Below are positions 6,066-13,693 of a stretch of DNA of 13,772 bases, piece after piece (positions within the stretch are counted from its first letter, which is position 1; each line of letters opens with the position of its first letter). The position numbers and the translations under genes were made by a program. The notes under the pieces were generated by a model. That model had not been told where the DNA came from, searched no databases, and saw only the letters and a program-made list of their open reading frames with translations. Source of the stretch: Candidatus Eiseniibacteriota bacterium (GTDB lineage: Bacteria > Arandabacterota > Arandabacteria > JAGLYR01); assembly GCA_023132135.1 (NCBI GenBank), contig JAGLYR010000079.1, positions 1 through 13,772 on the forward strand. The letters are read 5' to 3'.

Positions 6066-6347
6066 ATGACACCGAAGAAACACAGGAAGGTAACCGAACC
6101 CAGGAAGCAGGAAGCGGCTTCTACTGAACCAGTCACCAGCGAGAGTGCTCCCTTGCGAAAGCTCCCCACCCTCTTTGACAACCTGTACGAGTTGGTTGTA
6201 GCTGCGGCCACCCGTGCGCGCCAGATCAATGCCGGCTCGCCCACTCCTCTGGAGGAGAAAGACGACCGACCACTCAACATTGCCCTCAGGGAAATCGCCG
6301 CCGGGAAGACCAAGTACAAGCTCGGGGACGACAGCGCGGAAGAGTAG
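6066..6347 (+). CDS. rpoZ: DNA-directed RNA polymerase omega subunit
   Basis: A 93-residue protein. Residues 40-85 match the omega/Rpb6 core: LYELVVAAATRARQIN, then DRPLNIALREIAAGKTKYK. Omega clamps the beta-prime C-terminus and aids assembly and stability of RNA polymerase. Residues 1-33 are a basic, probably disordered extension (KKHRK, PRKQE), longer than in many omegas. The frame is open back to 5928, but an ATG there would lie inside the predicted promoter. ATG 6066, with TTAGGA ending three bases before it, is therefore the start. Archease begins four bases after the stop. Omega genes are often next to gmk, spoT or coaBC; here the downstream neighbours are RNA-repair genes instead. Confidence 0.85.
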   Translation: MTPKKHRKVTEPRKQEAASTEPVTSESAPLRKLPTLFDNLYELVVAAATRARQINAGSPTPLEEKDDRPLNIALREIAAGKTKYKLGDDSAEE

Positions 6348-6351
6348 GCGG

Positions 6352-6765
6352 ATGGCATACAAGCTCCTGGATCACGGTGCCGATCTGGGTATCGAGATCC
6401 GGGCGCCTTCTCAGAAGGGGCTCTTTGTCGAAGGCGCGCGGGCGCTGTTTGACGTGATCGGGACTCTCGGGTCGACCAGGTCCCTTGTGGAAGAAGCCGT
6501 CGAGATCGAAGGTGAAGATGTCGAGGAGCTGCTGCGCGGGTGGCTGTCGGAAATCCTGTTTCGCTGTGTCGCGCGGAAACGGGTGTTCTGCGATTTCGAA
6601 ATCCTCGAGCTGAATCGGCACCGGCTCCGGGCTCTGGCCAGGGGAGAAGCTTTCGACGCGGCAAGGCACCCCTTTGAACGGGAAATCAAGGCTGTGACCT
6701 TCCACGGGCTGGAAGTGATCCGGGAAGCACACGGGTGGCGGGCCACGGTGATCTTTGATGTGTAG
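6352..6765 (+). CDS. Archease, activator of the RtcB RNA ligase
   Basis: A 137-residue protein of the archease family. The N-terminus YKLLDHGADLGIEI matches the usual DHTADIGIE block, which includes metal-ligand acidic residues; D7 and D11 are present and T is replaced by G in HGAD. The C-terminus EIKAVTFHGLEV followed by WRATVIFDV is also typical. Archease stimulates guanylylation and turnover of RtcB, and its position six bases before rtcB supports the assignment strongly. ATG 6352 lies four bases after the rpoZ stop, with GGAAGAG (6338-6344) seven bases upstream inside the rpoZ end, so translation is probably coupled. The open frame upstream (from 6214) overlaps rpoZ and is not used. Confidence 0.9.
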   Translation: MAYKLLDHGADLGIEIRAPSQKGLFVEGARALFDVIGTLGSTRSLVEEAVEIEGEDVEELLRGWLSEILFRCVARKRVFCDFEILELNRHRLRALARGEAFDAARHPFEREIKAVTFHGLEVIREAHGWRATVIFDV

Positions 6766-6771
6766 GGGTGG

Positions 6772-8223
6772 ATGATGAAGACGGGTGAGATCACTCTGGA
6801 AAAGATCGACGATTGCCGCTGGCGGATCCCGGCCACGGGCCAGATGCGGGTTCCCGGTCTCATTTTTGCCACCGAGGCGCTCCTCCCCAAGATCCAGCAA
6901 GACCAATCAGCCCGGCAGGTTGCCAACGTTGCCCACCTTCCCGGGATCCTCACGGCTTCCATGGCTATGCCCGACGTGCACTGGGGCTACGGTTTTCCGA
7001 TCGGCGGGGTTGCAGCGACATCCGTCGACGATGGAGTAATTTCACCCGGTGGCGTGGGCTACGACATCAATTGCGGTTGCCGTTTGATGAGGACGAACCT
7101 CAGGAGTCGCGATGTTGAATCCAGGATGGCGGACCTGGTGGAATCCCTGTTCCGGAATATCCCCTGTGGGGTCGGTGGCGCGGGAACCATCCACCTCTCT
7201 GAGAAGAAGCAGAAACAGGTTCTGACCTTGGGCGCCCGCTGGGCGGTGGAAAACGGGTTTGGGGAATCAAGCGATCTGGAACGAACGGAGAACAACGGGT
7301 GCATGCACGACGCGGATCCGGACGCCGTGAGTCCCCGGGCTTTGGAACGCGGACGGGACCAGCTGGGGACCCTGGGTTCAGGAAATCACTTCGTCGAAGT
7401 GCAGGTGGTGGAAGAAATCTACGACGCCCAGGCTGCCCGGGCCTTCGGTCTGGAAACGGACCAGGTCACCGTGATGATCCACTCCGGTTCCCGCGGGCTG
7501 GGATACCAGGTCTGCGATGACTACCTCAAGGTCATGAACCGGGCCGTGAGGAAATACGGGATTGTTCTCCCCGATCGGCAGCTGGCCTGCGCACCCTTCC
7601 AGTCTGAGGAAGGGCAAAGGTACATGATGGCAATGTCGTGCGCGGCAAACTATGCTTGGGCAAACCGGCAGTGTCTGATGCACTGGACCCGGAAAACCTT
7701 GGAGAAAGTGCTGAGGATAGGACCGAGAGACCTGGGTATGCATCTCGTCTACGACGTGTGTCACAACATCGCCAAGGTGGAAGAACACGTCGCGGACGGT
7801 CGTCGTCAGAAGGTCTGCGTCCACCGCAAGGGAGCGACCCGCGCTTTCCCGGCGGGCCACCCGGACATACCGTGGGTGTACAGAAAAGTGGGACAGCCGG
7901 TTTTCATCCCCGGGGACATGGGTACCAGCTCTCACGTTCTGGTGGGCACGGAAGGTGCGATGGCGGAGACCTTTGGGAGCACGTGCCATGGAGCAGGCCG
8001 GGTCAAGTCCCGGGGAGAGGCGAGCCGGACCTTCCGCGCGGAGGATCTTCTGAAATCCCTTGCCGAGCGGGGTGTCTGTGTCATGGCCAAGCGCAGGAAG
8101 ACTCTCGTAGAAGAAGCTCCGGATGCATACAAGGATGTCGATCAAGTCGTCGATGTGGTAGCTCGTGCGGGAATTTGCCGGAAAGTAGCAAAGCTGAGAC
8201 CACTCGGCGTGATCAAGGGATAG
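6772..8223 (+). CDS. rtcB: RNA-splicing ligase RtcB (3'-phosphate/5'-OH RNA ligase)
   Basis: A 483-residue RtcB, the full family length. It joins RNA 2',3'-cyclic phosphate or 3'-phosphate ends to 5'-hydroxyl ends using GTP and Mn2+. All catalytic blocks are visible: MPDVHWGYG (66-74), GYDINCGCR (96-104) with metal-ligand C101, GSGNHFVEV (202-210) with N205/H206, IHSGSRGLG (236-244) with H237, DVCHNIAKVE (328-337) with H331, HRKGATRAF (351-359), and STCHGAGR (403-410) with H406, the residue that takes GMP by comparison with H404 of Pyrococcus RtcB. No intein interrupts it. The start is ATG 6772; ATG 6775 follows at once and would serve as well. GGGGTGG immediately upstream is the ribosome site. 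No rtcA or rtcR is nearby. The enzyme should be active, with archease beside it. Confidence 0.97.
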   Translation: MMKTGEITLEKIDDCRWRIPATGQMRVPGLIFATEALLPKIQQDQSARQVANVAHLPGILTASMAMPDVHWGYGFPIGGVAATSVDDGVISPGGVGYDINCGCRLMRTNLRSRDVESRMADLVESLFRNIPCGVGGAGTIHLSEKKQKQVLTLGARWAVENGFGESSDLERTENNGCMHDADPDAVSPRALERGRDQLGTLGSGNHFVEVQVVEEIYDAQAARAFGLETDQVTVMIHSGSRGLGYQVCDDYLKVMNRAVRKYGIVLPDRQLACAPFQSEEGQRYMMAMSCAANYAWANRQCLMHWTRKTLEKVLRIGPRDLGMHLVYDVCHNIAKVEEHVADGRRQKVCVHRKGATRAFPAGHPDIPWVYRKVGQPVFIPGDMGTSSHVLVGTEGAMAETFGSTCHGAGRVKSRGEASRTFRAEDLLKSLAERGVCVMAKRRKTLVEEAPDAYKDVDQVVDVVARAGICRKVAKLRPLGVIKG

Positions 8224-13039: not shown

Positions 13040-13068
13040 TTTCCAAACATGCCCCGACGTGCTATACT
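13040..13068 (+). promoter_or_regulatory. Extended -10 sigma70 promoter for the SEC-C gene
   Basis: TTTCCA (13040-13045; 4 of 6 to TTGACA), a 17-base spacer and TATACT (13063-13068; 5 of 6 to TATAAT) preceded by TGC give an extended -10 promoter. Transcription should begin near 13075, about 72 nt before the SEC-C start codon. The region 12924-13039 holds only the 9-bp repeat units and nothing else I can name. Confidence 0.65.
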
Positions 13069-13090
13069 GTTTGTATGGGTTAGAAGTCGG

Positions 13091-13121
13091 GAAGGTTCCG
13101 GCGGATTTCGCCGGGACCTTC
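13091..13121 (+). ncRNA. Strong stem-loop in the 5' leader of the SEC-C gene
   Basis: GAAGGTTCCGGCG (13091-13103) pairs with CGCCGGGACCTTC (13109-13121) around the loop GATTT. The stem has 13 pairs, 12 Watson-Crick and one U-G. It lies between the predicted transcription start (about 13075) and the ribosome site AGGA (13135-13138). No T-run follows, so it is unlikely to be a plain terminator. It could be a leader regulatory element, an mRNA stabiliser or the core of a small RNA. Confidence 0.5.
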
Positions 13122-13146
13122 GGTCACCTTTATCAGGATCTGAGAC

Positions 13147-13311
13147 ATGAGTTTCCTCAAGAGATTCTTCCGCCGCGAGGGCCCGCCTGCGGACATCAGG
13201 AGAAACGATCCCTGCTGGTGTGGGAGCGGCAAGAAATACAAGAGATGCTGCCTGGAGTCGGACGTGAAGCGGGCCTCGTCTTCTCGTGCTGTCTGCGGCA
13301 AGGTCGGCTGA
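13147..13311 (+). CDS. SEC-C zinc-motif mini-protein (54 residues)
   Basis: A very short gene. The centre [17 protein letters not shown] (19-35) is a complete SEC-C motif, with C23, C25, C34 and C35 as zinc ligands. SEC-C motifs end SecA, where they bind SecB and ribosomes, and also occur in unrelated small proteins. The N-terminus is basic and aromatic ([11 protein letters not shown]), and a polar tail of about 18 residues follows the motif. The start is ATG 13147 with AGGA (13135-13138) eight bases upstream, behind a good promoter and a leader hairpin. It is not a broken secA, since no SecA sequence precedes it in any frame. The role is unknown; binding ribosomes, nucleic acid or another protein is plausible. 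Confidence 0.82.
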
Positions 13312-13321
13312 AGCGCACCCC

Positions 13322-13340
13322 GGGGGTAGGTCCTGCCCCC
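13322..13340. terminator. GC-rich hairpin after the SEC-C gene, terminator-like
   Basis: GGGGGTAG (13322-13329) pairs with CTGCCCCC (13333-13340) around GTC, eight pairs with one G-T wobble. It begins 10 bases after the SEC-C stop and lies between two converging genes, where a bidirectional terminator would be expected. No T-run follows on either strand, so it is a weak call. It could equally be part of a dispersed palindromic repeat. Confidence 0.35.
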
Positions 13341-13344
13341 CCCC

Positions 13345-13386
13345 ATTCCCCATTTACTATTCGCTATTTCCCATTCCCTGTTTCCC
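13345..13386 (-). repeat. Degenerate heptamer array A (six 7-bp units)
   Basis: On the plus strand six consecutive 7-base units read ATTCCCC, ATTTACT, ATTCGCT, ATTTCCC, ATTCCCT and GTTTCCC (consensus ATTYNCY; AGNGAAT-like on the minus strand). The last codons and the stop of the minus-strand membrane gene lie inside this array. Confidence 0.65.
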
Positions 13387-13693
13387 CCAGCCTTTTTCTT
13401 GCCATCACTGCCATCACGACTATGATAACAGGTAACACGACGTTGAGGATCCATAGCACCGGAATCCCCGCAGTTCCCACCAGATACTGATGCACCCGGA
13501 TCACCAGCACGGCCGCGCTCGCTCCGATGGCGCCCAGGAACGCTCCGGATCGTCTCCGGCCCGTCGAGTGCGTGACGAGGACGAAAAGGAGGGCGGCCAC
13601 CAGATCCACGTGCTCTCGCCGGGCAATGAAGCTCAGGGCGCATGTCACGGCCGCCGCTGCCAGAGCGATTCTCAGGTATAGCTGCTCACGCAT
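13364..13693 (-). CDS. Small four-helix membrane protein of unknown function
   Basis: A 109-residue protein that I do not recognise. Four hydrophobic segments are clear: about 7-24 (LRIALAAAAVTCALSFIA), 29-43 (VDLVAALLFVLVTH), 50-66 (GAFLGAIGASAAVLVIRV) and 75-97 (GIPVLWILNVVLPVIIVVMA). Basic loops lie after helices 1 and 2 (ARREH, GRRR) and a basic end follows helix 4 (ARKR), which should help fix its orientation. The minus strand has AAGGA (+strand 13703-13707) nine bases before the ATG, so the start is well supported. The last residues GETGNGK and the stop are encoded within heptamer array A, so the native C-terminus may have been replaced. It converges on the SEC-C gene. Transport or a holin-like role would be guesswork. 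Confidence 0.65.
   Translation of the reverse strand: MREQLYLRIALAAAAVTCALSFIARREHVDLVAALLFVLVTHSTGRRRSGAFLGAIGASAAVLVIRVHQYLVGTAGIPVLWILNVVLPVIIVVMAVMARKRLGETGNGK

Follow-up and report, generated by a model that had tools for sequence, protein, structure and literature searches.

A short stand-alone SEC-C gene

The window (the whole 13,772-nt stretch of Candidatus Eiseniibacteriota DNA analysed here) carries a confirmed short open reading frame at 13147–13311, which a sequence-only reading had described as a stand-alone SEC-C mini-gene encoding 54 residues, with an extended −10 promoter, a good ribosome-binding site and a strong leader hairpin. The features now assigned to this locus are collected in Table 1. 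Elsewhere in the window, an archease gene directly precedes the gene for the tRNA-splicing ligase RtcB, with Lon following (6214–8223); the pairing of archease with RtcB is a known one. The eight clear genes between 164 and 13009 end in TAG in seven cases and in TGA in one, a bias towards TAG that is unusual where G+C content is high, the count being that of this window. On the minus strand, a hydrophobic 109-residue open reading frame at 13364–13693 has no Pfam or NCBIfam match, and an Rfam scan of the window returned nothing.

Table 1. Features assigned to the SEC-C gene and its flanks
Feature	Position	Strand	Basis
Promoter-like site, TTTCCA–17 nt–TATACT, TG before the −10 element	13040–13068	+	Site scan; TATAC[TA] also upstream of the G001, G004, G042 and G492 homologues
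Leader hairpin, 13 pairs; specific to the window's genome among those compared	13091–13121	+	Folding (z −2.1); no counterpart in homologues
Ribosome-binding site, AGGA	13135–13138	+	Sequence inspection
Proposed complete coding sequence, 60 residues; UGA codon 55 as Sec, real stop TAG at 13327–13329	13147–13329	+	Comparison
SEC-C motif, residues 19–36; metal ligands CxC ... CC (CH in homologues)	13201–13254	+	Pfam PF02810; solved relatives 1sx0, 9l6b
Cys50, invariant, five residues before Sec (Cys-x4-Sec)	13294–13296	+	Homologue alignment
UGA proposed to encode selenocysteine, residue 55	13309–13311	+	TGA there in 16/16 genes
Candidate SECIS hairpin, GGGGGUA-GGUCC-UGCCCCC, starting 10 nt after the UGA, G-first loop	13322–13340	+	Published SECIS constraints; covariation

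The upstream signals bore out the earlier description. The promoter-like site has the TG of an extended −10 element, and such sites occurred three times in the scanned stretch compared with 0.4 times in shuffles, while the AGGA lies 12 nt before the ATG. TATAC[TA] was found upstream of five of the 14 family genes tested, the window's among them, against a background of 0.014 per 100 nt across those loci, and this enrichment supports the gene having its own promoter.

Pfam analysis confirmed the SEC-C assignment (45.4 bits, cut-off 20.4), and the window protein contains the CxCxSG...KxC[CH] pattern of PF02810, whose putative metal-ligand residues are conserved across the family alignment. Models for SecA, YchJ/YecA and methionine aminopeptidase matched through the motif alone, with approximately 16–35 bits against cut-offs of 68–267; no ATPase, NTF2-like or peptidase domain was matched, and the protein was not assigned to any of these families. 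One other SEC-C match occurs in the window's genome, where contig C55 ends in an incomplete copy of the motif. AlphaFold modelling of the window protein with one homologue gave a mean pLDDT of 62.9, which is too low to use. A membrane-binding N-terminal helix was considered and is not claimed, given hydrophobic moments of 0.3–0.7 that were rarely beyond those of shuffles.

Homologues and their genomic context

A protein search of related genomes recovered the gene from five other genomes of the window's class and from G042, which lies outside the window's phylum. Scanning named genomes brought in one metagenome-assembled genome of the Phycisphaerales (L049). Further members came from profile searches, namely in G293 and G379, twice in G227, and as four genes spread over three relatives of that Phycisphaerales genome. 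With the window's gene, the family therefore comprises 16 genes in 14 genomes. The 15 homologues come from 13 other genomes, which reach into five or more lineages beyond the window's phylum, and include genes that match in length and cysteines. Several also have the same type of promoter, so the view of this locus as a stand-alone SEC-C gene with its own promoter was right. All members share a short N-terminal stretch (MGhhxKhhR...), the knuckle CWCGSGxKYKxC[CH] and, in the tail, a single Cys that never varies. Those SEC-C matches of 40–65 bits from the wide searches that were inspected proved to be SecA C-termini, methionine aminopeptidases and other longer proteins, and a plasmid search gave nothing beyond the SEC-C parts of other proteins.

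No conserved operon partner was found within the window's phylum, where neighbours vary by genome, which indicates that the gene stands alone there. In three Planctomycete-related genomes of the Phycisphaerales group, the gene adjoins a Nitro_FeMo-Co gene and the same stretch encodes NUBPL/MinD-type iron–sulphur P-loop ATPases. Such neighbours are seen at loci L286, L287 and L292 in relatives of the Phycisphaerales genome, with a sigma-54 activator nearby in L286; the arrangement resembles the orange-protein operons of anaerobes. The G492 gene lies around 100 nt after a thioredoxin gene, and the second copy in G498 is near a gene for a pyridine nucleotide-disulphide oxidoreductase.

The leader hairpin is not conserved with the gene

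The 13-pair stem in the leader is real, although the folding energy of the leader is only modestly beyond chance (equally good in 5 of 200 shuffles). It was not found in any of the seven homologous leaders compared, and a blastn search of all loci examined matched the window itself and nothing else. The stem was therefore rejected as a conserved regulatory element, and the leader part of the sequence-only reading, which was to stand or fall with the occurrence of this hairpin beside the gene elsewhere, is refuted. The associated argument, that such investment in the control of a tiny protein points to a regulatory role, fails because the hairpin is confined to the window's genome among those compared. 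The element that is conserved with the gene is a different hairpin, located downstream of the UGA and outside the coordinates first assigned to the locus. The main feature, the UGA with its candidate SECIS, had been missed.

A conserved in-frame UGA precedes a covarying hairpin

An in-frame TGA occupies the same position in all 16 genes, five codons past the invariant Cys. The frame continues beyond it for one to six codons in every gene before reaching a second stop, which is itself TGA in 10 of the 16. UGA is thus not simply reassigned, and global reassignment was rejected on this count; the TGA second stops imply that UGA still terminates translation when no hairpin lies at the right distance. 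The length of 54 residues first given for the protein is probably wrong, as the comparative marks of a selenocysteine (Sec) codon are nearly all present at its terminal UGA. The main gap concerns homologues that encode Cys in place of Sec, which usually supply a second proof that a protein is a selenoprotein but are not strictly required; none was found among the loci examined or in domain-wide and Planctomycete-related samples of 386, 249 and 385 genomes, which overlap and together form a small sample.

The bacterial SECIS model calls for a stem of 4–16 bp, a loop of 3–9 nt with G in its first two positions, a UGA-to-loop distance of 16–37 nt and a folding energy of at most −7.5 kcal/mol (PMC13188914). 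Applied here to uninterrupted stems only, it was passed by 14 of the 16 genes, including all of the first eight examined, compared with 2–10% of same-flank shuffles per sequence and 5.5% of the TGA triplets in the window. The hairpins usually begin 10–13 nt after the TGA and most take the form RRGGUGA-GUY-UCACCYY. That of the window (−13.4 kcal/mol) was equalled in none of 400 shuffles, lies mostly beyond the proposed true stop codon and carries within its loop the GGUC core known from Escherichia coli fdhF.

Two genes did not pass. The second G498 copy falls just short, at −7.2 kcal/mol (0.3 kcal/mol off), while of the two G227 copies, that on C6 (L250) has a good SECIS and that on C24 (L256) has no hairpin acceptable to the model and is possibly a decaying duplicate. 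Across 14 hairpins, all 96 base-pair cells hold standard pairs and six of the seven base pairs show changes on both sides. Column shuffles gave a mean of 73, and none of 2000 reached 96; the sequences are related and the stem arms were placed by hand, so this count is not to be read as a probability, while the changes themselves span several lineages.

Selenocysteine machinery in the carrier genomes

Sec is used by about 21.5% of sequenced bacteria (PMC5029168). The window's genome encodes all four of tRNA-Sec (anticodon UCA), SelA (543 bits), SelB (356 bits) and SelD, the last with an in-frame TGA of its own (...SSGAGUACKMS...). SelA scored over the cut-off in 12 of the 14 carriers; it was not found in G005, which is 83% complete, and was represented in G492 by contig-edge fragments only. 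SelB is fragmentary in G002 and G005, and these two assemblies and that of G492 are fragmented. SelD exceeded the cut-off in 13 of the 14, each with a copy containing an in-frame TGA, and was not found over the cut-off in G379 (97% complete). A second SelD in the window's genome (L191, contig C44, 14710–15633) is probably a fusion, judging from its 765-residue frame without a UGA; similarly long frames occur in other carriers.

Discussion

Taken together, the unvarying UGA, a hairpin that covaries and keeps almost the same distance from it, and the Sec machinery of the same genomes argue that the product of the window gene is very probably a selenoprotein of 60 residues, with the UGA read as Sec, and that its family has not been described before. 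On comparative grounds, the most likely end of the protein is ...VCGKVGUSAPRG, with Sec55 directed by the downstream hairpin. Translation would reach the UGA, where SelB held by the hairpin would deliver Sec-tRNA-Sec; five residues would be added after Sec before termination at the TAG. The product would begin with a short basic and hydrophobic N-terminal segment, continue through the SEC-C metal knuckle and finish in a tail that bears the invariant Cys-x4-Sec.

A more conventional interpretation is that the UGA is an ordinary stop, that the proteins of this family are 54–59 residues long and that the hairpin downstream is a transcription terminator or a stem that stabilises the mRNA. UGA is common as a bacterial stop codon, and stop codons are often followed closely by a hairpin, but the flanks inspected have no T-run after the hairpin, a scan of the window gave no terminator-like site, and a terminator function was rejected for want of the T-run. 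A terminator would, moreover, require no UGA, which is present in all 16 genes, no G-first loop and no constant distance of 10–13 nt between codon and stem, and it explains neither the invariant Cys five codons before the UGA nor the occurrence of the gene in Sec-decoding genomes. We therefore regard an ordinary stop as quite improbable. The proposal with which the locus was first described, a regulatory SEC-C microprotein controlled by its leader hairpin and acting at the ribosome or in secretion, has in its favour the gene's own promoter, the binding of ribosomes and SecB by the SEC-C of SecA (PMC6620043) and the resemblance of the family to the SEC-C extension of some methionine aminopeptidases. 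It nevertheless leaves the conserved UGA and 3' hairpin unaccounted for, and the leader hairpin is missing from all homologues compared, so that as a whole it is very improbable indeed. The conflict is limited to leader control, as a location at the ribosome is compatible with a selenoprotein.

For the selenoprotein, the most likely function is that of a small redox or metal protein that would use Cys50 and Sec55 while docked to a partner through SEC-C. The two residues might be linked by a reversible selenenylsulfide or might hold a metal or metalloid, and the chance of a redox role appears to be about even. A non-catalytic role, in which Cys50 and Sec55 would bind a metal or metalloid or provide an extra ligand near SEC-C in a metal chaperone or sensor, is somewhat unlikely. 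In its support, iron may be the metal that the SEC-C knuckle binds physiologically (PMC6620043), the gene neighbours Nitro_FeMo-Co and NUBPL/MinD-type ATPase genes in the three Planctomycete-related genomes, and metal-ligand roles for Sec have been proposed for SaoB, SaoC and UXX-star proteins (PMC13188914). The thioredoxin and disulphide oxidoreductase neighbours in G492 and G498, however, fit redox use equally well. The neighbours of the homologues thus point to redox or metal handling, whereas those in the window are uninformative. By analogy, a role of the window protein at the ribosome or in secretion is possible because the SEC-C of SecA, a small metal knuckle, binds ribosomes as well as SecB (PMC6620043). 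A more specific model, which we consider rather unlikely in its entirety, is that a monocistronic SEC-C microprotein brings a selenol to a docking site at the ribosome exit, SecB or an iron–sulphur ATPase, where Cys50/Sec55 would act as a redox switch on the knuckle metal or on a client; this would be the first selenoprotein family built on SEC-C.

None of the 119 prokaryotic selenoprotein families inventoried in 2026 is built on SEC-C, and no C-x4-U motif is listed for them. A search of NCBIfam release 20 matched no family over its cut-off and no selenoprotein family for any of eight members. No paper joining selenoproteins with the SEC-C motif or domain was found in the full-text literature, and the case for novelty rests on the 2026 review and NCBIfam. 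Genes this short that appear to end at UGA slip past length filters, and they are probably also missed by selenoprotein searches that depend on longer homologues with Cys. At the window, a standard gene call would end the protein one residue before the likely active Sec, an annotation to be corrected, and the 60-residue protein is a clear target for testing. If the assignment is true, a widespread selenoprotein family on a ribosome- and SecB-binding knuckle would connect selenium biochemistry with protein biogenesis or with the handling of metals.

Known systems resemble parts of this family. The Sec-containing SelD of the window's genome and of 12 other carrier genomes likewise has an in-frame TGA, but is a selenophosphate-synthesis enzyme with a sequence unrelated to the mini-protein. 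UXX-star, KCU-star and SaoC proteins are likewise small and often metal-related; their Sec is close to the C-terminus, a position read from the family names, and a bacterial SECIS follows the UGA (PMC13188914), although their domain is unrelated to SEC-C. Methionine aminopeptidases with an N-terminal SEC-C (PRK12318) are the best curated match throughout the family (8 of 8 members, best 2.5e-9), a likeness that consists of the knuckle plus a CHxxxD run; in contrast to these enzymes, the family has no peptidase domain, and the window protein scores 27 bits, far under the model's cut-off of 267. The nearest solved relatives are the SEC-C of SecA (PF02810; 1sx0, 1tm6) and that of YchJ (9l6b), in which the knuckle has the same ligand spacing. 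Compared with these, the window family stands alone, with a short N-terminal segment and no ATPase or other domain, and is distinguished by a W in the CWCGSG loop and by an extra 20-residue tail with the putative Cys-x4-Sec.
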